Below are positions 4,409-15,314 of a stretch of DNA of 64,000 bases, one piece after another. The position numbers and the translations under genes were made by a program. The notes under the pieces are model-generated. The model was not told the DNA's origin. It saw only the letters and a program-made list of their open reading frames with translations, and made no database searches. Each line of letters begins with the position of its first letter. Position 1 is the stretch's first letter. Source of the DNA: Lentilactobacillus kosonis (GTDB taxonomy: Bacteria; Bacillota; Bacilli; Lactobacillales; Lactobacillaceae); NCBI RefSeq assembly GCF_003864335.1, contig NZ_BEXA01000002.1, positions 310,001 through 374,000 on the forward strand, read 5' to 3'.

Positions 4409-6117
4409 ATGTCATTTGATGGTTCATTCACACATTCAATGGAAAAAGAACTAACCTCGCTACTAGTAACTGGCCGAGTTAGTAAAATCAACCAACCATA
4501 TCCCAACGAACTATTATTAACAATCAGAGCTCATAGTAAGAACCACACTGTACTACTATCTGCTAATCCTAGTTATGCTCGGGTCCAAATAACTAAAATA
4601 CCAGCAGCTAATCCTGCAGTGCCCAATAACTTTACAATGGTCCTTCGCAAACACCTTAGTGGTTCCATCTTAACTAAAGTTAACCAATTAGATAATGACC
4701 GGGTGCTACAATTTCACTTTTCTGGTCGTAACGAAATCGGTGATCAAACATCATTAATGCTAGTCGTTGAAATCATGGCCAGACATAGTAACGTTATCTT
4801 AGTTGATGAAGCTACTAATAAGGTAATTGACGCTATTAAGCGAGTTGGTTCAGACGTAAATCGTTACCGAACCCTGCTTCCTGGATCAACTTACGTTAAC
4901 CCACCAAAGCAAGATTTATTGAATCCATTTACAATAACTAACTTTGAAATGATTCAAAAGTTAATTATCCAATACCCCAACGTCGATGTTTTAGCTGAAC
5001 AATTGCGTAACACCTTACAAGGTCTTGGCACTGATACCTCCCTTGCTTTAGCAACTTGGTTGCATCAAGACGGCGGGTTGGAAGATAATTTCAATAACTT
5101 CTTTAAGCAATTTGATGAACCTTCCCCTGTTCTTAGTGAACTTGATAATAACAAAATCAATTTTACCGCATTTCCATATCCCGATACAGTTGAAAATAAA
5201 ACTTTTCCAACTTTAAGCGAATTATTAGATGCATTTTATGCATCTAAGGCTCAACGCGATCGTGTTCGGGAACAAGGATCGGTATTAATTGCTGTTGTGC
5301 GCAAACAACTAAAAAAAGAACCGCAATAAGCTCAAGAATCTTGATAGAGATTTAAAGCAAACCGAACATGCTGATTCATTTAGAATTCAAGGTGAGATTC
5401 TCACAACGTACCTGAACAAGATTCAACGTGGTGATAATCAAATTGAATTACCTAATTTTTATGATGAAAACAAGCCCATCAAGATCAGTTTAGATAACAG
5501 CATTTCCCCTTCTGAAAATGCCCAAAAATATTTTAAAAAATATCAAAAACTGAAGAACGCCGTGAAATACCTTCATGAACAAATTGAGATTACTCAAGCT
5601 GAAGTTAATTACTTTGAAAACATTCAAAGCCAAATTGAGCTTGCTAATCCCGAAGACTTAGTTGATATTCGACTTGAGTTAGAGCAAGAAGGATATCTTA
5701 GAAATCATGATCAGCATAAAAAGGCTAAGAAGAATCGTCAAAAGATTAGTAAGCCTGAACATTATACGGCCACTGATGGGACTGAAATTTTGGTCGGTAA
5801 AAATAACCTCCAAAATGAAAAGTTAACGATGCATACTGCGGATAAACGTGAAACTTGGTTGCATACCAAGGATATTCCAGGATCTCATGTAATTATTCGG
5901 AGCTTTGACCCTAGTGAAGAAACCATTGTTGAAGCCGCTAACCTGGCAGCTTACTTCTCTAAAGCTCAAAATTCAACTAAAGTTCCAGTTGACTACACTA
6001 AGGTGAAAAATATTCGAAAGCCGAACGGAACAAAAACCCGGTTATGTAATTTACGATAACCAGACAACCCTCTTGATTGATCCTAATCCAGAATTAGTTG
6101 CTAAATTACGCAGATAA
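4409..6117 (+). CDS. rqcH: RqcH / NFACT ribosome quality control protein (two frameshifts)
   Basis: RqcH (older names FbpA, fibronectin-binding protein) adds C-terminal alanine tails to nascent chains on stalled 50S subunits. The NFACT-N domain begins MSFDGSFTHSMEKEL; a coiled-coil lies in the middle and the NFACT-R domain holds the family motif WLHTKDIPGSH near residues 450-470. Two extra A residues break the frame, in the A7 run at 5311-5317 and the A5 run at 6032-6036. Removing one A from each gives an unbroken protein of 568 residues ending VAKLRR, typical of the family. The ribosome binding site is AAGGAAG. The breaks look like sequencing error. Confidence 0.92.
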
Positions 6118-6122
6118 CAAAT

Positions 6123-6160
6123 AAAAATCGTGATTACGTAAGTAAGATCACGGATTTTTT
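6123..6160. terminator. Bidirectional terminator between rqcH and carB-like gene
   Basis: AAATCGTGAT pairs with ATCACGGATTT (one bulge), with A residues on the left and a T-run on the right, between two convergent genes. Confidence 0.7.
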
Positions 6161-6164
6161 ATTT

Positions 6165-8681
6165 TTAATCTAATTCATAATTTTCAAAATTTTGATAGCT
6201 AATTTTAGCACCCGATTCTTGAGCGATTGTGCCATCTGTCAGATTTGACTGTAATGCTTCAAATGGAAATACTGCATTCAAATAAGCAAATCGTTTATGT
6301 GTAAATGAGCGCAATTCCTCTTCGATCAATAATGTATTATCTAATCCAAGATATTTTCTTACCAAAACCGCAATCCAATTAATACCGGTAACCTTGCTTA
6401 AAAATGTAGTCTCGGTAATCGTCATTGGCCGGATACCAACAAATTCAAAGTTGTTATCCGTCTTATGATAAAGCACTTGAACTAGTCCTTGCCAATCACT
6501 AGGATTCAACTCATTGATAGCCATGTTAACCAACTTCGACGCATCCTGCTTCCAGTTAGTCATGGGAATTTGTAATTGCGTTAAAAAACGCAACTTATTT
6601 TTCCCTTGGGGATTGGAAAAACTTACTGTTGTAATCGGAATAACCTGATCACCATCAACAAAAAAATCAACCGCATTAGATACAGCAGTATCATTAAACA
6701 CTGATGTGTGTTGATCTGGCGGTAAAATAACCACATTCAAATTCTCGAATTTTTTCAATTGATTTGATAAGAAATGTCGATTTCCTGGTAGAAAAATTAC
6801 ATCTGGTCGTTCGAGTTTGACAATGCTTAAAATATTCCCCAGTTGAATTGGCTCAATATACTGTTTGTCGCTAATACTTGGCGCCAATGAAACAGCGTTA
6901 GGATTTGTATTCATAATTATTGTTTTGTATCCCGTTTTTCTGAGTTGAAGCAATATTTGCGCAGTGTAATAATCAGCCCCCGTATTGGGTCCGAGCTGAT
7001 TTCCGCCACGGCCTATCACTAAAGCAATCTTACCATCTTCAAACGGCTTACTCTCGTTTTCATTCTCATAACTTGAATAAAAAACGTTAGTGTTGTCGAC
7101 TAATTCGCCACCAGTAGGTTCAATCCCCTTAAAGGTGATCTTATGATTAACATTATCATTCATTCGAATAATGGTTGAAATACTTACCTGCCAAAGTTCA
7201 GCTAACATACCATCACCAAACCCATAGCGGTGCCCCACTTCGATTGAATGTTCTGACAATGGATGATTAATTACATAGTCTTGAGCTTTTAGTAATTGAT
7301 TTAGTTTATAAAAGTAAAATTTATCAATCTTAGTCAGTTCAGACAATTCATCGATTGAGAATCCTCGCCTTAAGGCCTCCATTAAAATTAGCATGCGGCT
7401 AGCCAATGGATGAATTAATTGATTAATCAATTCGTCATCGTTAACCTTAGAGACACTTGGTAAAATATCTCTAGGTGATAGCTGTGAACTGTGCAGTGCT
7501 TTAATAATGGCTTCCTCAACAGTTCGGCCAACTCCGATTGTTGACCCAACGGATTTCATAATTGTATTTAAATGCTGGTCGACATCCTCGATGTCTTCAA
7601 ATGGCCAAATTGGAACTCTAACCACGATATGGTCCGTTGTTGGTTCCATGATTCCCATAAACTTATTATATCGGCTAGGCAGCTTAATCTCCGTTAATGA
7701 ATAGCCCAATTCAAGAAATGTCGCAACATATGAAAGTGGGTAGCCAGTCACTTTAGCAGCTAGTGCCGTGTTACGAGTATAGTACGGACTAACCTTAGTA
7801 ACAAAATGACTATTTTCCATTCGATGTTGAGCGAATTGGACGTGACACGTCCCAGTGATTCCAAGTGCATCCATAATTCTAAAAGTGGCTGTTCTTAATC
7901 GTTGGTATTCTTCATTAAGTAACGTTTGAGTTGGAGCAAAAATAATTGAGTCACCTGAGTGAATTCCAATAGGATCCATGTCTTCTAAACCAGAAACTAA
8001 AATTTTGTTTCCCTGAGCGTCTCGAATCCCAACCATTTCTATTTCCTTGTAGCCAACAATACTTTGCTCAATGGAACAGCGTTTAATGTAAGTCCGTTTA
8101 AAACTAACATCTAAGGCCTCTTCAAGTTCTTCAGTATTATTGCAAATAAATCTACTAGTATCATGATTAGGTGAAATTGGTTTAACAATTACCGGAAAAT
8201 CAACTTTACGAACAAAATCAAGGGCCTCATCTTCATTAGCAACGATTACTGATTCAATTGTTCGCTCGTTAATGTCCGACAGCGTACGTTTCAATTCAAT
8301 GTTTTCAACAACCTTTGACAAGTTAGCATCTCTAACTCCTACCAATGAAACATTATTCTCTTCTAAAACTCCACTCTCAGATAACTGCCAAGCAATTTGC
8401 ATTGCCTTAAGGCCACCATTGGTTGGCATAATGGCATCCGGTTGTTCTCGCTCAATAATGTTAACCACATTAGTAAAGTTAACTTCCAATACAAAAACAT
8501 CAGCTGCTTGGATTTCTTCAGCCATGACTGAAAATGGATTGTTATCAATTAGTAAAATTTTAGCCCCAGTTTTTCGCAATGCCGTCAATCGTTCCAAACC
8601 AGATGCATCAAATTCATTTTCGATGCCAACATTTGTTGGTCCACTTCCGATAATCAAAACTTTTTTAATATCTAGAGGCAT
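6165..8681 (-). CDS. Degenerate carbamoyl-phosphate synthase large-subunit-like protein
   Basis: An uninterrupted 838-residue CarB homologue; working CarB is about 1060. The N-terminal half aligns throughout (GSGPTNVGIENEFDASG at 12-28, GYKEIEM near 210, VQFA near 281-284), but key ATP-grasp residues are gone. The glycine loop of the form TLGGTGGG is replaced by ISPNHDTS (169-176), and the metal-binding E-V-N-P-R is replaced by K-V-S-P-Y (296-300). The second half keeps a pre-ATP-grasp fold (LVIGRGGNQLG), but its ATP-grasp core is mostly missing and the C-terminal allosteric domain is absent. Catalysis as a CPSase is very unlikely. The start overlaps the carA-like gene by 17 bases, implying coupled translation. 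Clean frame and codon usage argue that it is expressed and selected. Confidence 0.85.
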   Translation of the reverse strand: MPLDIKKVLIIGSGPTNVGIENEFDASGLERLTALRKTGAKILLIDNNPFSVMAEEIQAADVFVLEVNFTNVVNIIEREQPDAIMPTNGGLKAMQIAWQLSESGVLEENNVSLVGVRDANLSKVVENIELKRTLSDINERTIESVIVANEDEALDFVRKVDFPVIVKPISPNHDTSRFICNNTEELEEALDVSFKRTYIKRCSIEQSIVGYKEIEMVGIRDAQGNKILVSGLEDMDPIGIHSGDSIIFAPTQTLLNEEYQRLRTATFRIMDALGITGTCHVQFAQHRMENSHFVTKVSPYYTRNTALAAKVTGYPLSYVATFLELGYSLTEIKLPSRYNKFMGIMEPTTDHIVVRVPIWPFEDIEDVDQHLNTIMKSVGSTIGVGRTVEEAIIKALHSSQLSPRDILPSVSKVNDDELINQLIHPLASRMLILMEALRRGFSIDELSELTKIDKFYFYKLNQLLKAQDYVINHPLSEHSIEVGHRYGFGDGMLAELWQVSISTIIRMNDNVNHKITFKGIEPTGGELVDNTNVFYSSYENENESKPFEDGKIALVIGRGGNQLGPNTGADYYTAQILLQLRKTGYKTIIMNTNPNAVSLAPSISDKQYIEPIQLGNILSIVKLERPDVIFLPGNRHFLSNQLKKFENLNVVILPPDQHTSVFNDTAVSNAVDFFVDGDQVIPITTVSFSNPQGKNKLRFLTQLQIPMTNWKQDASKLVNMAINELNPSDWQGLVQVLYHKTDNNFEFVGIRPMTITETTFLSKVTGINWIAVLVRKYLGLDNTLLIEEELRSFTHKRFAYLNAVFPFEALQSNLTDGTIAQESGAKISYQNFENYELD

Positions 8682-9756
8682 TGTTTTCCCTTCTTCTGGC
8701 CATAATTTCTATAAAGTCATCGAATAAGTCCACACTATCCTTGGGTCCTGGCGCTCCATCAGGTGAAAATTGAACTGAAAACGCCGGATAATCTCGATGT
8801 CTTAACCCTTGCACCGTGCCATTGATTAAGTCGATATGAGTAATATAAAGATTATCATGATCAATCGATTGTGAATCGACAACGTACCCTTGTTCTTGAC
8901 CTGAATAAAAAATCTCATTAGTTATAATTTCCCGAATTGGGTGATTACTCCCATGATGTTCGATTGGCAATTTTTCAACAGTAGCCCCATTGGCCATTGC
9001 AAACAATTCATGACCCAAACCGATTGCAAACATTGGCACCGTTTCTTGAACCTCTCTGATCATGTCCAAGACCCCATCAGCTAAACTAGCAGGATTTCCA
9101 GGGCCAGTTGATAGTACAACCCCATCAGGATCTAAGTCCAGTATTCGTTCACTTGAGAAATCAGCTGGGACTACTGTAATATTACAGTTTCGCTTTGATA
9201 ACTCGCGAAGAATTCCACTTTTTAAGCCAAAGTCCACAACGATTACATTATCTCCATCACCTGGGTTGGCATATGGTCTAGCAGTGGCAACTTGAGAAAC
9301 CTGTTGATTAGTCAACACTGTTGCATGCAGTTGATCAAACGCGTGTGCGTCATCAACATCAACAATGCTGGCTTTCATATTTCCAAATCGATGAAGATGA
9401 TGAACCAACTCTCTGGTATCAATATCGTAAAGGCCAGGAATTTTATGAAGTTTCAAATAACGATCTAGCGAAATGCGTTTAAATTGATCAGTGGTTAAAT
9501 TTTCATATTCTCGAACAATTACACCCTTAGCCGTTGGTAAAACTGACTCATAAGCATTTTGAGCGAGTCCAGTATTCCCAATTGATGGCTGGGTAAATAC
9601 AATGATTTGGTTATGATAAATTTGATTAGAAATTATTTCTTGGTAGCCATTCATCGTGGAATTAACGACAATTTCACCAGTTGTTGTTGAAGCTGCCCCA
9701 AAAGCTCTACCACGGTATGACGTGCCATCTTCAAGAATCAAATATCTATCTGCCAT
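8665..9756 (-). CDS. Degenerate carbamoyl-phosphate synthase small-subunit-like protein
   Basis: A 363-residue full-length CarA homologue: N-terminal CarA-specific domain (LILEDGTSYRGRAFG, GYQEI) followed by a class I glutamine amidotransferase domain. The catalytic triad is lost. The nucleophile motif G-I-C-L-G-H-Q reads A-I-G-L-G-H-E (244-250), so Cys is Gly246; the Y-H-P-E motif reads F-S-P-D (330-333), so His is Ser331 and Glu is Asp333. It cannot release ammonia from glutamine by the usual mechanism. It lies 23 bases downstream of pyrR and overlaps the carB-like gene. Surrounding conserved motifs (HHGSNHP, GLRH, PGPKDS) are preserved, so this is not a frame error. Confidence 0.9.
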   Translation of the reverse strand: MADRYLILEDGTSYRGRAFGAASTTTGEIVVNSTMNGYQEIISNQIYHNQIIVFTQPSIGNTGLAQNAYESVLPTAKGVIVREYENLTTDQFKRISLDRYLKLHKIPGLYDIDTRELVHHLHRFGNMKASIVDVDDAHAFDQLHATVLTNQQVSQVATARPYANPGDGDNVIVVDFGLKSGILRELSKRNCNITVVPADFSSERILDLDPDGVVLSTGPGNPASLADGVLDMIREVQETVPMFAIGLGHELFAMANGATVEKLPIEHHGSNHPIREIITNEIFYSGQEQGYVVDSQSIDHDNLYITHIDLINGTVQGLRHRDYPAFSVQFSPDGAPGPKDSVDLFDDFIEIMARRRENNASRY

Positions 9757-9779
9757 ACCACACCTCGTTTATAAATAAA

Positions 9780-10313
9780 TTATTTAGTAAGTTCAACCGC
9801 GTCGCGATCATCAATCTCTTCAACTGAAACCCGAATCTTTTCTTTTTGAGAACTAGGAATATTTTTGCCCACAAAATCGGCTCGAATTGGTAACTCACGA
9901 TGACCACGATCAACTAAAACTGCTAAATTGATTGATTTTGGTCGACCTAGGTCCATGACAGCACTAAGAGCTGCTCGGACGGTGCGGCCAGTGTATAATA
10001 CATCGTCAACAAGAATTACTCGTTTGTTTTCTACTGAAAAGTCAACTCCATTGTTCGCAATTCGTACATCAGTACTCATTGAATCATGTTCAATATCATC
10101 TCTATAATTAGTAATATCCAATTCACCAACTGGAATAGTAACATTTTCTAATTGTTGTAAGCGATTGGCAATTCTAGTCGCCAAAAAGATTCCTCTAGTT
10201 TTAATACCAATTAAAACTAGGTCATCAACACCCTTATTACGTTCGACAATTTCGTACGTAATTCTTGTTAATGCTCTTTGCATTGCCATTTTATCTAATA
10301 TAATTTTCCCCAT
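9780..10313 (-). CDS. pyrR: PyrR, pyrimidine operon attenuator / uracil phosphoribosyltransferase
   Basis: A 177-residue PyrR. The family binds pyr mRNA leaders in response to UMP/PRPP and has uracil phosphoribosyltransferase activity. The PRPP-binding motif [18 protein letters not shown] is intact near residues 98-115, and the TYEIVERN and IGIKTRGI segments are present. It heads the pyrR-carA-carB-like cluster; no pyrB, pyrC, pyrD, pyrE or pyrF lies nearby. Lactobacillus plantarum is reported to have a second PyrR (PyrR2) that responds to inorganic carbon; this copy could be that type, which is inference. No PyrR-binding leader hairpin was recognised upstream, where rluD abuts. Confidence 0.92.
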
Positions 10314-10339
10314 CGTGTTTGCTCCTTAAAAAGTAAATT

Positions 10340-11279
10340 CTAGTTCAGAATATTTATATTAAAAATTTCTATTGCAGCGGAATTTCTGTTGGTTTTTAAT
10401 TTCTTGAGCTTATCTTCAAAAAAATCTGGCAATGGTGCTGAGAAAATCATTAGTTTACCAGTTTGGGGATGCTCAAATCCTAATTCTTGGGCGTGTAAAA
10501 ATTGCCCATGATCACCATAAACTTTTTTAGGTCCATATAATGGATCCCCAAGTAGTGGATGACCGATATACTTCAAGTGTACCCTAATTTGGTGAGTTCG
10601 TCCCGTCTCTAATCGACACTCAATCAGAGTATATTTTTCGAATCTTTTAATTACTGTAAAGTGCGTAACTGCAGGGCGACCATCATCAACAATTGCCTGC
10701 TTCTTACGATCAGTTTTAGATCTACCAATTGGGGCATTAATTACACCATGATCTTCCTTGATCGTCCCATAAACTAATGCCACATATTTTCTTAGATTCT
10801 TCTGTTGCTTAAGTTGCTTAGATAGCTCCGCATGTGCATGGTCATTTTTAGCGACCATTAGTAATCCTGAAGTATCTTTATCAATCCTATGAACGATTCC
10901 CGGTCGAAATTCGCCATTAATCGTCGACAGCGGGCTGTGAGCTAACAATCCGTTCACTAAGGTATGGGTTGCATGACCAGCCGAAGGATGAACCACCATT
11001 CCAGAAGGCTTATTCACTACAATAACGTCATTATCCTCATATACAATATCTAAATTCATCTTTTCAGGCACTAAATCGATTTCTTGTGGCTCTTCATTAA
11101 CAATGGTAATCACGTCACCAGTGGCCACCTTATATTTTGGCTTAACCACTAAATCATTCACAGAAACGTTTCCTTCATCACTTAGCTTTTTTGGCTCTGG
11201 ACCTAGATATTTTTGGTTCTAATTCGGCAATCACTTTGTCAATTCGACCAGTCTGATCGGTTACATCTAATTTTATCAT
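10340..11279 (-). CDS. rluD: RluD-type 23S rRNA pseudouridine synthase (one frameshift)
   Basis: A large-subunit rRNA pseudouridine synthase of the RluA/RluD family. The S4 RNA-binding domain is at the N-terminus and the catalytic aspartate motif GIVHRIDKDTSGLL is present, followed by LETGRTHQIRVH. An extra A in the run at 11187-11192 breaks the S4 domain. Removing it joins the start codon at 11279 (MIKLDVTDQTGRIDKVIAEL) to the rest and gives 312 residues, normal for the family. The start is four bases past the lspA stop, so the two genes are cotranscribed. Confidence 0.9.
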
Positions 11280-11283
11280 TTAG

Positions 11284-11721
11284 TTAATCCCTTATAATTT
11301 TGAATGCTAAGATTATAATTCCAATCGTTAAAAACATATCCGCACAATTAAAGATTGGAAAATTAATAAAGTCTAATTGGAACATATCGACGACATATCC
11401 TTGGATAATACGATCAATCAAATTACCTAATGTACCAGCTAATAATAGCGTCAAACTAATTTGATACACCACGTGTCCGTTAAATTTAAACAAGTAGTAA
11501 ATGATGAAAGCAGCAGCAATTAGCGCTATTACGACAAATAACCATCGTTGTCCCGTCAGCATGCTCCAAGCTGCTCCATCATTATTCAATCGGGTAATTG
11601 AAATAACACCATTAATTACAGAATTAACTTGCCCTAGCTGCAAACTACTAACAACCCAAAATTTAACCAATTGATCAATTCCAATCAACCCCACACTAAT
11701 TATTATATAAATAAATGGCAT
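11284..11721 (-). CDS. lspA: Lipoprotein signal peptidase (signal peptidase II)
   Basis: A 145-residue membrane protein with four hydrophobic segments. It cleaves signal peptides from diacylglyceryl-modified prolipoproteins. The two catalytic aspartates are in the conserved motifs GNLIDRI (near residue 103) and FNCADMFLTIG (near residue 127), and the N-terminal DQLVK motif is present. An AAGGAA ribosome binding site overlaps the end of fhs, and rluD follows four bases later, as in many Firmicutes where lspA and rluD are paired. Confidence 0.93.
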   Translation of the reverse strand: MPFIYIIISVGLIGIDQLVKFWVVSSLQLGQVNSVINGVISITRLNNDGAAWSMLTGQRWLFVVIALIAAAFIIYYLFKFNGHVVYQISLTLLLAGTLGNLIDRIIQGYVVDMFQLDFINFPIFNCADMFLTIGIIILAFKIIRD

Positions 11722-11732
11722 AATATTCCTTT

Positions 11733-13390
11733 CTAAAATAGACCGGTAATTTTACCATCAGAATCGATATCCATATTTAAAGCTGCTGGATGAGATGGTA
11801 ATCCAGGCATTGTTAGAATTTTACCAGTTAATGCGACAATAAAACCTGCTCCTGAACGAATTGATAATTCAGAAACGTGAATTGTAAAGTCGGTTGGTGC
11901 GCCTAATTTTTAGGATCATCTGTAAATGAGTACTGAGTTTTAGCCATACATACAGGTAATTTATCATAACCAAGTTTTTTAATTCTCTTTAACTGAGTTT
12001 GAGCCTTTCCTGATAATTCGACCCTAGCACCACCATAAATTTTCTTAACAACCTTATTTATCTTAATTTCAAGTTCATCATCAGCATTATAGACTGAAGT
12101 GAAATCACTAGGTTGTTCAATTGCCTCAAGAACCCCATTAGCTAACTCAATGGCCCCTTTACCACCTTGAGTAAAGTTTTCTGAAACATATGTTTGAATT
12201 CCAAGATTATCACCAATTAACTTAGATAATAATTCAATTTCGGCATCAGTATCTGTTCCAAACTTATTAATTGTGACCACTACTGGCACCCCGAATTGAC
12301 GCATTGACTGAACATGCCGATATAAATTAACAGCACCCTTTTCTAGCGCTTGTAAGTCCTCATTAGCTAACTCAGATTTATTCATACCACCATTTAGTTT
12401 CAAAGCTCTAATTGTTGCCACAACGACCACACAATCTGGGGTCTTACCTAATTTAGGTGTAACAATATCCATAAATTTTTCGGCACCTAAATCCGAACCA
12501 AAACCGGCCTCAGTTAAGGCAATATCTCCATAATGCATTGCCGCTTTAGTTGCTAAAATACTATTACATCCATGCGCGATGTTAGCAAATGGCCCCCCAT
12601 GAATAAAGGCTGGGGTATGTTCAATTGTCTGCACTAGGTTTGGCTTAATCGCATCTTTTAACAACAATGTTAGTGCACCTTGGACCTTTAAATCACGAAC
12701 ATAAACTGGTTCACGATCATATGTATAACCAATTAAAATGTTGGCGATTCGTTCTTTTAAATCGTTTAGATCAGTAGCCAAACATAAAATGGCCATCAAC
12801 TCACTCGCAACCGTAATATCAAAACCATCTTGGCGAGGAACTCCAGAGGTACGACCACCCAAGCCAACAACAGTTTGCCTTAGTTCCCGGTCATTAACAT
12901 CTAATACCCGTTTCCATTCAATTTGACGAGGATCAATATTCAGTTCATTCCCATGGTGAATATGATTATCAATCAAAGCAGCTAATGTATTATGGGCTTC
13001 TGTTAAGGCGTGGAAATCACCAGTAAAATGGAGATTAATATCTTCCATTGGAATAACTTGCGAATAACCCCCGCCTGTAGCGCCGCCTTTCATGCCCATA
13101 ACTGGTCCGATGGAAGGCTCTCTCAAGGCTAATACAGCATTTTTACCTAACTCGGTCAATGCATCACCTAATCCAACAGTTAGTGTGGTCTTACCTTCCC
13201 CAGCAGCAGTCGGGTTAATTGACGTTACAAGCACTAGCTTACCCAAATTATCATCCACGTTATTTAAAGATACTTTTGCTTTATAGTGACCATACGGTTC
13301 TAAATCCTGGTCATCGATATCAATTTTGGCGGCAATTTCACTAATTGGTAATAATTCTGCATTTTGGGAAATCTCTACATCTGTTTTCAA
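11733..13390 (-). CDS. fhs: Formate-tetrahydrofolate ligase (one frameshift)
   Basis: ATP-dependent ligase making 10-formyl-THF from formate and THF for purine and fMet-tRNA synthesis. The phosphate-binding loop TAAGEGKTT is near residues 62-70, and [21 protein letters not shown] is recognisable near 105. The frame stops early at 11903, after TDDPKN, because one A is missing from the A5 run at 11907-11911. With six As the protein continues KKLGAPTDF to a stop at 11735-11733, giving 552 residues, typical of the family. The neighbours folT, folA and thyA also serve one-carbon metabolism but are not in the same operon. Confidence 0.93.
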
Positions 13391-13401
13391 ATTAATTCCT
13401 C

Positions 13402-13800
13402 CTATTTATCTTTGCGAGCATTGGCAATCAAACCACTAATTTCAATTACTGAGTTTGGTGGCAGGATAAAGCTATAAATTTTGCCATGGGCTACAAACCC
13501 CAACTGATACTTATTAGTCTGGACGTTGGTAATCTCACTTAAATCAGTTATTAACCACTGTGGATTAATAATTCTGCCAACTTTTAACGTTCCTGATTCA
13601 ATGGTAATTTTCCGAAAATGAATTTCCGACCAACAAATAAATGCGAATATGGCAAAACACAGCAACGTAATCCACTGAAAATGCGTAATTTCTAACCAGA
13701 TAATTACCCCAATAAAAAACACCACTAAAGTCCAACTCCAACAAATAATGCTACTTAATGGATTGGGTTGATATAAAAATCGTCTTTTTTGCGTTATCAT
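13402..13800 (-). CDS. ebsA: EbsA family membrane protein
   Basis: A small membrane protein of about 132 residues with two adjacent hydrophobic segments after [16 protein letters not shown], a recognisable EbsA signature, and a short soluble C-terminal region. EbsA was named from an enterococcal locus linked to surface aggregation; its biochemical role is unknown. I place the start at ATG 13800, not the in-frame ATG at 13827, because AAGGAG lies at 13816-13811, nine bases upstream. It ends 11 bases before the fhs start, so it is probably first in an ebsA-fhs-lspA-rluD transcript. Confidence 0.75.
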
Positions 13801-13834
13801 ATTTTTAAACTCCTTAGAAAGTGACACCTTAATA

Positions 13835-14227
13835 ATGATTAAACTATATACTGATGCTGCCGTAAACCAAAAATATCAAAAAAGTGCAGCTGGCATCCTA
13901 ATTCTCCAAAATTCTGATCAAATTCAACTAACAAAACCTTTAACAACAACTGATAATCATGAAGCAGAATTTCAAGCAGCACTAATTGGTCATCAACAAA
14001 TTAAACCAGTAAATTCTGAGGAATTAATTTTCTTTTACACTGATAGTAAAATTGTAGCCGAAGCCATTAACAAGCAATACGCCAAACACTATCAATTGTA
14101 TGTCGATCAGTTGCTTGAACTCGAAGCTAAATTAGGGACCGTGATTACTGAGTGGATTCCCGATAGAGAAAATAAAGGAGCCCATAATTTAGCATTACAG
14201 GCTCTCCATCATTTAGAACGAATATAG
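13835..14227 (+). CDS. RNase H-like (reverse-transcriptase-like domain) protein
   Basis: A 130-residue RNase HI-fold protein. Acidic positions suitable for metal binding appear in LYTDAA (Asp near residue 6), HEAEFQA (Glu near 45) and YTDSK (Asp near 69). The last is followed by a region close to the C-terminal helix but with no clear final Asp-His pair, so activity on RNA/DNA hybrids is plausible but unproven. It is divergent from ebsA, a pairing also seen in other lactobacilli. Its 3' end overlaps the restored end of the convergent FAD oxidoreductase by 19 bases. The ribosome binding site is weak. Confidence 0.8.
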   Translation: MIKLYTDAAVNQKYQKSAAGILILQNSDQIQLTKPLTTTDNHEAEFQAALIGHQQIKPVNSEELIFFYTDSKIVAEAINKQYAKHYQLYVDQLLELEAKLGTVITEWIPDRENKGAHNLALQALHHLERI

Positions 14228-15314
14228 TTATCAACTGGTTTAGTAAATGTGCTTAAGTTCTGTGGTTCCGACTGTGCAGAAATCCAATCAGCAATCATTT
14301 GCCAATGATTGGTCCCGTTGTGAGCCCCGAAGAACCCAAGCCACCCGCCACAAATACTTTCGAATCAGGTGTTAATTGACCGAAAAATGGTGCGAAATCA
14401 GATGTATAACCTCGCGTCCCAACGCGAATAGCAATCTGTGCTGCTGAATTAAGTTGGGGAATAAATTTACCACCACTTTGAGTTAACGCTAAAATTTCAG
14501 GGTCCGTAGGTTCCAAATCAAATCCCTGATCATTTTCATGAGTTGCCCCAATTGTGATAATTCCGCCCTTAAAGGGAATAATGTCATTCTCTGATTCTGG
14601 CATCATTACTGGTAGCCGATCTGTATCCCAATCAGCTAATTTAAAATCAACTAACTGCCCCTTTTGTGGGCGAATATCGACTTTGTAACCTAATGGCATT
14701 AACAATTCTTTTAAAAATGCACCTGGAGCCAGAACTAATGAATCAAACTTAATTCGATTATTATCAAATGTCACTTCGTTATCTGAAGATAACATAACCC
14801 GTTTTCGAATAGTGCTCATACCCTTGGACTCAGCTGCCGAAATTAAGTGGTCAACTAACTTCTGCCCATTAATTTTTGCCCCACCAGATACATAAATTCC
14901 TGATTCGGTACAATTAACAATGGGCATCATCGCCATAATATCTGCCGACGTTACTTTTTTGATAGTTCCAATTGCACTACTATTCATGGATCTGCTAACC
15001 GCTAATTCATACAACTCATTAACCGCATTGCTATCTTTTCTAGTTACAATTGTGCCCGTCTGCTCATAGATACTCTCATCTAAATTAGCGTCAGCAACTA
15101 ATTGTTGGTACAACTCTGCCCCATATGAAGCCAAGTTGTACCAGCGTTTGTTGCGTCGTTTAGATAACCAAGGTGAAATGATTCCCGAGGCCGCCTTGGT
15201 GGCTTGACCATGCGCATCATCGAATAACGTCACTTGTAAATTAGTTTGTTGGGCCAAATAGTATGCGGCAGTGGCACCAATAATGCCGCCACCAATAATT
15301 CCAACTGTCTTCAC
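14209..15314 (-). CDS. FAD-dependent oxidoreductase, DAO family (one frameshift)
   Basis: A D-amino-acid-oxidase/glycine-oxidase-like flavoprotein. The dinucleotide-binding motif GGGIIGATAAYYLAQ is at residues 8-22, and the C-terminal FAD contact GGLGSSGLTTGP is near 325-336. The frame ends early at 14295 because one A is missing in the run at 14298-14300; with it, the protein continues MIADWISAQ to a stop at 14211-14209 (368 residues). Substrate is unknown: glycine, sarcosine or another amine would fit the family. It lies 10 bases downstream of rlmL and is probably cotranscribed. Confidence 0.85.

Follow-up and report, generated by a model that had tools for sequence, protein, structure and literature searches.

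Why should a bacterium keep two carbamoyl phosphate synthetase (CPSase) genes whose products seem unable to make carbamoyl phosphate? The question is raised by a 64,000-nucleotide stretch of Lentilactobacillus kosonis DNA (contig NZ_BEXA01000002.1, positions 310,001 to 374,000; below, the window), in which three minus-strand genes follow one another: pyrR (9780..10313, 177 amino acids), an open reading frame (ORF) of 363 amino acids with a full-length CPSase small-subunit fold (8665..9756), here called carA', and a truncated large-subunit-like gene, carB' (6165..8681, 838 amino acids versus 1073 in E. coli). The gap between pyrR and carA' is 23 bases, and by ORF coordinates the end of carA' and the start of carB' overlap by 17 bases (8665..8681, minus strand), so that the two are likely to be translationally coupled. 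This is exactly the layout described in a first-pass annotation of the same DNA, which proposed that two dead CPSase subunits work with PyrR as a sensor of bicarbonate or a nucleotide. Genomes, loci, genera and contigs are labeled G (G000 being the window's own genome), L, g and C, respectively.

Our answer has two parts. We hold the first with high confidence, reading it from sequence: the active sites are lost, the pairing is conserved, the pair comes from a pyr operon, and both genes are still under purifying selection in genomes that have neither PyrB nor a second CarA. The whole proposal is tentative and may well prove wrong; it gives the dead pair a sensing or scaffolding role, without catalysis, in uracil uptake and pyrimidine salvage, often in the company of PyrR.

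Lost active sites in a conserved fold

CarA' has G246 and S331 in place of the E. coli glutaminase nucleophile C269 and of H353, and in the same alignment also has replacements at S47, Q273 and N311. In the E. coli enzyme C269, H353 and residue 355 form the catalytic triad, and S47, Q273 and N311 belong to the glutamine site. Residue 355 is Asp in CarA' and Glu in E. coli; since Asp also occurs there in 28 of 55 active sequences, it is no sign of death. The window's CarA' thus reads G-S-D where a functional CarA has Cys-His-Glu/Asp. Among 178 aligned CarA rows, 123 have Gly269 and 55 have Cys269; His353 is present in 0/123 of the first and 55/55 of the second. These rows are redundant (thinned, they come to 71 dead and 42 active, representatives of other genera included) and are short of 12 of the 60 loci L094-L153, which the ORF picker did not extract. 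The fold is nonetheless retained: CarA' matches the CPSase small-chain and class-I glutamine amidotransferase families (PF00988, 136 bits; PF00117, 123 bits), exceeds the NCBIfam cut-off of NF009475 (417 vs 221), and is modeled by AlphaFold2 with a predicted local distance difference test score (pLDDT) of 84.9 and a predicted template-modeling score (pTM) of 0.85.

In CarB', E. coli R129, G175, G176, E299, N301 and R303 are replaced by N, H, D, K, S and Y, respectively. It lacks most of the second ATP-grasp domain and the C-terminal allosteric domain, and keeps the fold of the N-terminal half. In place of the two complete ATP-grasp sites of a working CarB (E299/N301 and E841/N843) it has K299/S301/Y303 at the N-terminal site, the C-terminal site being mostly deleted. 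Its scores fall below both equivalog cut-offs (TIGR01369, 554.8 vs 1027; NF003671, 528.9 vs 599). The AlphaFold2 model (pLDDT 90.0, pTM 0.91) has E. coli CarB (1jdb) as its best Foldseek match, with a TM-score of 0.86 on the query. The pair, then, is predicted to be catalytically dead, as the first-pass annotation had supposed and as the C269G and H353S replacements and the ATP-grasp losses bear out. With catalytic residues lost, the fold kept and selection still acting (see below), the two genes have the marks of a pseudoenzyme pair.

What is left of the first CarB' nucleotide site? Of the 95 dead CarB rows left after thinning, 92 retain E215, 91 G241, 85 H243 and 70 Q285; E299 is changed to Lys in 69, and R303 is Tyr or Phe in 70 and something other than Arg in 80. 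We take R303 to be the equivalent of the bicarbonate-binding Arg of biotin carboxylase, and assign E215, G241, H243, Q285, E299 and R303 their known roles in the nucleotide, metal and bicarbonate sites of CarB. Given these roles, the ribose side of the site is kept and the metal, glycine-loop and bicarbonate sides are gone. This makes a bicarbonate sensor at the old site unlikely and leaves a nucleotide receptor without turnover possible. At a level of at least 85% the only residues specific to dead CarB' are L134 and S377. In CarA', H138, A139, D141, Q142 and V147 are invariant in 71/71 thinned dead rows, residues 138-147 being variable in active CarA, and this segment is a candidate partner-binding helix.

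One locus, L196 (G020, g20), has a dead CarA' and a dead second ATP-grasp domain together with a first ATP-grasp domain that retains the tested metal, loop and catalytic residues. Such a half-dead CPSase may help to show which functions went first.

Distribution and pairing

A locus scan using one genome per species and peptide patterns taken from the window's CarA', and so favoring the dead form, returned 72 loci. All 65 that belong to Lactobacillaceae by record title have Gly at the Cys269 position; the other seven (Syntrophomonas-like, Melainabacteria and similar) have Cys-His-Glu. Altogether 141 loci were examined, of which 14 are active and 127 dead (116 distinct CarA; five were classed by CarA alignment and not by the short motif). 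A CarB homolog follows the dead CarA' on the same strand in 127/127, in 126 of them at E <1e-20 and in L193 at 7.6e-16. PyrR is a frequent neighbor and not a constant one: it lies directly upstream (within 300 bases) at 94 of the 127 dead loci and further upstream at six, and is absent from the fetched stretch at 27, among them loci of Limosilactobacillus, Paucilactobacillus, Lactobacillus and Candidatus Paralactobacillus. At five of the six, uraA intervenes; at the sixth, L062, PyrR and CarA' are spaced as they are at L189.

The pair is not universal. Residue-checked genomes of g12, g24, g28 and g32 carry active CarA only, and in g13, g29 and g30 the one CarA locus checked per genus is likewise active. 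The taxonomic breadth even so goes beyond what had been suggested for this locus, and carA'-carB' is an ancient pseudoenzyme pair present across most of the Lactobacillaceae genera sampled. In g28, none of five genomes (G028, G062, G091, G116, G140) has a PyrR match at E 1e-25, and two have none at 1e-8 either; G028, whose residues were checked, carries two CarA, both active.

Origin from the pyr operon

Gene order suggests where the pair came from. An intact string, lspA-rluD-pyrR-uraA-pyrB-pyrC-carA-carB, with an active CarA, is found in g12, g24 and g32. At an intermediate stage, pyrR-uraA-carA'-carB', CarA' is dead and CarB' is full-length (g11, g14, g20) or 643 amino acids long (g21). Most sampled genera have pyrR-carA'-carB' with a CarB' of about 790-860 amino acids, and Lactobacillus-type loci have rluD-carA'-carB' with a full-length but strongly diverged CarB' (26-28% to E. 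coli). CarA' shares its HAFDQL segment with the active CarA of intact operons, a mark of descent from them. A PyrR-leader model built for the lineage and run on 84 sources rather than on all loci places a leader directly before pyrR in the intact loci L181, L182 and L188 and in the intermediates L062, L189, L192 and L203, and more weakly in L206 and L196. The leader before uraA-carA'-carB' in L195 (G026) was a training sequence of the model and also scores 56.7 bits, above the Rfam cut-off; that of L159 is marginal (E 0.3 with the lineage model, 40.9 bits with Rfam).

The pair is thus the CarA and CarB remnant of an ancestral pyr operon, with catalysis lost by sequence and the paired folds kept. 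The pyrR-pair linkage was inherited from that operon and by itself is no sign of partnership, so that the linkage, which the first-pass annotation had explained by joint sensing, is accounted for by history. Did CarA die only once? The 92-row CarA tree needs three changes of state and an 88-row tree two, the latter omitting four rows (three of them dead), namely one long branch and three near-copies or second copies. Holding all dead rows together gives p-AU (approximately unbiased test) 0.218 with 88 rows, so that one origin is not rejected; one death or several are both possible on these sequences. Short CarB' proteins come in several lengths, about 815-857 amino acids in the window's clade, 791-800 in g4, g9 and g34, 643 in G021 and 659 in G009 (loci L191, L194, L198, L203 and L193 compared with the window), and truncation may therefore have happened more than once.

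Retention without the pathway

The pair does not need the pyrimidine pathway in order to persist. No PyrB match at E 1e-40 was found in 35 of 251 family genomes (15 of the 35 from absence in the match list), and 26/26 of those that were residue-checked, nine of the 35 not being so, contain both the dead CarA' and CarB'. In G158, which is PyrB-less, there is no CarA match at all. Four genomes of the window's own genus (G013, G049, G152, G208) have neither PyrB nor a second CarA and keep PyrR-carA'-carB'. Of the 11 genomes sampled in g15, 10 have no PyrB, and in these the single CarA match is the dead copy. A working CPSase is called absent here from CarA searches, no family-wide CarB search having been made.

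Substitution patterns indicate that these genes are guarded. We compared the proportions of nonsynonymous and synonymous differences (pN/pS) by the Nei-Gojobori method. In g15 (10 genomes, medians over 45 pairs) the values are CarA' 0.040, PyrR 0.073, RluD 0.099, CarB' 0.116 and LspA 0.133, CarA' being the most constrained of the five genes. In 16 Lentilactobacillus-type loci they are PyrR 0.039, CarA' 0.105, RluD 0.181, CarB' 0.184 and LspA 0.254, and in three L. senioris-like species (three loci) CarA' 0.207, PyrR 0.244, RluD 0.264 and CarB' 0.326. In every group measured CarA' and CarB' are below 0.5; relative to both RluD and LspA, CarA' is lower in three of five groups, intermediate in one and higher in one. 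In 7/7 two-copy genomes of the window's genus, the dead CarA is 79-92% identical to that of the window and the working CarA 64-75% to the genome's own. Taken together, the pair is under purifying selection rather than decaying, and depends on neither the pyrimidine pathway nor CPSase chemistry; that it is guarded in species which lost the pathway makes a second job seem likely.

The module does seem to be failing in one place. In g10 (L193, G009) PyrR is 158 amino acids long and matched mainly in its C-terminal half, CarA' is degenerate and CarB' has 659 amino acids; no PyrR leader was found in the G009 genome. All three genes appear to be decaying together there.

PyrR and the Lactobacillus plantarum carbon dioxide response

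The window's PyrR has the features of a canonical PyrR (an RNA-binding attenuator and uracil phosphoribosyltransferase). It exceeds the NCBIfam equivalog cut-off (NF003548, 262 vs 218 bits), its 13-residue phosphoribosyl pyrophosphate (PRPP) loop is intact in the translation, just as first noted, and there are RNA targets in the genome. Three PyrR-type leaders (RF00515) precede pyrB (55.9 bits, the only one above the Rfam gathering score), a uraA-like permease and another permease (50.3 and 46.6 bits), both permeases being named by reading. The 46.6-bit leader, at G000:C1:355397-355514 (L093), precedes a permease that reads like a cytosine/allantoin-type transporter and is possibly a further PyrR target. 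Before the operon in the window no leader was found, either with the Rfam model (positions 5000-14500, up to E 1) or with the lineage model (window, up to E 0.5), and autoregulation by attenuation is therefore not supported here.

Is this PyrR a second regulator, as the comparison with PyrR2 of L. plantarum in the first-pass annotation would imply? At E 1e-25 the window's genome, an 83% complete assembly, yields a single PyrR match, as does each of the 12 genomes of the genus, this one included; no second PyrR was found among the eight of its ten phosphoribosyltransferase hits that were compared. The label of a PyrR2-type second regulator thus does not fit this organism. L. plantarum (L031, G254) differs in having a pair of PyrR genes, and here the first-pass annotation was right that the second is linked to CPSase-like genes. 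The first lies on contig C23, some 0.4 kb away from the PyrB match; the other (C1:462363-462875, contig coordinates) is the PyrR of L031, directly before the dead pair, in the same rluD-pyrR-carA'-carB' order as in the window. A table in PMC7911632 equates lp_1782 with pyrR2 and lp_2704 with pyrR1, and according to PMC3582564 the pyr genes respond to inorganic carbon through PyrR2. We infer that lp_1782 is the PyrR copy at the dead-pair locus. The published pyrR2 deletion, from a 2006 study, may have touched carA'B' as well, and the names pyrAa1 and pyrAb1, reportedly used in J. Bacteriol. work on L. plantarum, hint that the authors knew of a second set. In the portion of the literature covered by our search, which lies outside those key J. 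Bacteriol. papers, these genes are nowhere described as dead CPSase subunits.

PyrR itself probably still has targets where PyrB is gone, since 27 of the 34 PyrB-less genomes searched still have a PyrR-type leader at E 1e-3, 12 of them above the Rfam cut-off (G158 is outside this count, and G045, which has PyrB, was excluded). Covariation of rates was considered as proof of a PyrR partnership and set aside: partial correlations of 0.44-0.56 with one control fall to 0.20 for CarA' and 0.10 for CarB' once RluD, LspA and RqcH are all controlled for. The value for CarA' with CarB' after controls is 0.47, in keeping with a possible complex of the two.

What might the pair do?

We propose that CarA' and CarB' would still form a heterodimer, and that CarB' may hold an adenine nucleotide without hydrolyzing it, its ribose-side residues being kept and its metal ligands lost. 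The CarA'B' complex would then act as a non-catalytic sensor or scaffold in uracil uptake or pyrimidine salvage, with PyrR as a common, not an obligatory, companion. In the window's species an lspA-rluD-pyrR-carA'-carB' string, not subject to PyrR attenuation, would produce the pair along with PyrR. Several observations weigh against this proposal. The salvage-side role is suggested by gene history and by operon mates in a few genera. G233 keeps the pair in a genome in which no PyrR (E 1e-8), PyrR leader, PyrB or second CarA was found, so that PyrR is not obligatory and the link to pyrimidine control is not universal. RqcH covaries with CarA' (0.68) and CarB' (0.76) under two controls, and the CarA'-CarB' value is therefore no proof of a complex. 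E215 and H243 may be retained for reasons of fold. Constraint is also uneven, Limosilactobacillus CarB' (pN/pS 0.492) being looser than RluD (0.176) and LspA (0.368), and Lactobacillus-type CarA' (0.284) looser than RluD (0.205) and LspA (0.254), and all these ratios are rough because pS is near saturation.

A role more closely bound to PyrR, in which CarA'B' binds bicarbonate or a nucleotide and so alters PyrR attenuation of pyr genes and uracil transport, seems doubtful to us. It draws on the frequency of PyrR directly upstream, on the survival of PyrR, leaders and pair after PyrB is lost, on their joint degeneration in g10, and on the position of the L. plantarum PyrR that figures in the inorganic-carbon response. 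The PyrR-less loci and G233, the low covariation after three controls, the loss of the putative bicarbonate Arg and the ancestral nature of the linkage all speak against it. The PyrR link first proposed thus stands as a common arrangement and falls short as a general one, and a bicarbonate-PyrR mechanism is possible but weakened. That CarA'B' is a non-hydrolyzing nucleotide receptor of the Lactobacillaceae tuning uracil uptake and pyrimidine genes, the CO2 phenotype of PyrR2 being wholly or partly its own, strikes us as unlikely.

Could the pair have acquired a new chemistry, as a re-purposed ATP-grasp and amidotransferase-fold enzyme? Intact predicted folds, selection, the partly kept nucleotide pocket and the L196 lineage with its retained first site would allow it, but it is improbable, because the first ATP-grasp metal ligands are lost in the window's clade, the second ATP-grasp domain is mostly gone, and neither L134 nor S377 adds a new catalytic-looking residue to CarB'. 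A regulatory or dominant-negative partner of working CPSase, through mixed CarA/CarB complexes, would suit the preserved subunit folds and the working-type CPSase of the window's genome; since the pair is kept under selection where no second CarA was found, this is very improbable. Finally, that the genes are a functionless relic of the pyr operon has next to no probability in our judgment: operon descent, the visible decay in g10 and the looser Limosilactobacillus CarB' and Lactobacillus-type CarA' are what a relic might leave, but pN/pS below 0.5 in all groups, a CarA' more constrained than RluD and LspA in most of them, paired frames at all 127 dead loci and confident predicted folds are not. 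The non-catalytic sensor or scaffold on the salvage side is what we retain as our proposal.

Relation to known systems

CarA' and the N-terminal half of CarB' share their fold and domain order with E. coli CarA and CarB (1a9x, 1jdb). Unlike the E. coli enzyme, the pair has lost the glutaminase nucleophile and His, the glutamine site and the metal ligands, along with the allosteric domain and the greater part of the second ATP-grasp domain. Human CPS1 is ammonia-dependent and, like CarA', lacks the glutaminase Cys; with its two ATP-grasp sites in place it still makes carbamoyl phosphate, whereas CarB' lacks both sites by sequence. The inactive dihydroorotase of Pseudomonas, a pyrimidine-pathway protein without catalysis, is retained because of its structural role and has a known partner. 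CarA'B' resembles it as a retained dead protein of this pathway and differs in deriving from another enzyme and in being kept without PyrB or a second CarA. A title cited in PMC6022934 describes the inactive dihydroorotase as required for assembly of Pseudomonas aspartate transcarbamoylase.

CarA' exceeds the automatic cut-offs for working CarA. A genome in which it is the sole CarA can therefore look competent to make carbamoyl phosphate, and such misannotation would mislead metabolic models of lactobacilli. An enzyme kept non-catalytically across much of a major family, after the loss of PyrB and working CarA, offers a clean test case for the ways in which pseudoenzymes acquire functions. 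With pyrR2 of L. plantarum directly upstream of it, the pair is also a concrete candidate in the long-noted CO2 dependence of lactobacilli, and the CO2 phenotype of PyrR2 merits re-examination now that the second PyrR is placed at a dead-pair locus.

Genomic context

The statement that no pyrBCDFE genes are present holds for the window as far as PyrB and PyrC go, neither being found there by tblastn with the genome's own proteins (a search that covered these two and not pyrD, pyrF or pyrE), and fails for the genome. Contig C1 carries pyrB-pyrC and, divergent from them, a carA of working type and a carB that is frameshifted in the assembly; pyrF, pyrE and a broken pyrD, named from reading their translations, are grouped elsewhere on C1. 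The check for a true pyr operon and CPSase proposed in the first-pass annotation thus finds pyr genes and a separate CPSase of working type.

Upstream of pyrR, and outside the module, lie an rluD-type pseudouridine synthase gene (10340..11161, minus strand), the upstream gene of the ancestral pyr locus, and lspA (11284..11721, minus strand), a conserved upstream neighbor. In scans for promoters and terminators the number of sites was close to that in shuffled sequences. Below carB' and convergent with it is an rqcH/fbpA-like gene (window 4409-6117), here in two reading frames and in many relatives a single ORF of about 570 amino acids; a serC-like gene, carB and pyrD elsewhere in G000 also look broken, which suggests an indel-prone assembly. 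The close relative G013 has the three genes of the module at identical lengths and with 98, 98 and 93% identity, so they are not the product of chance or of assembly error.

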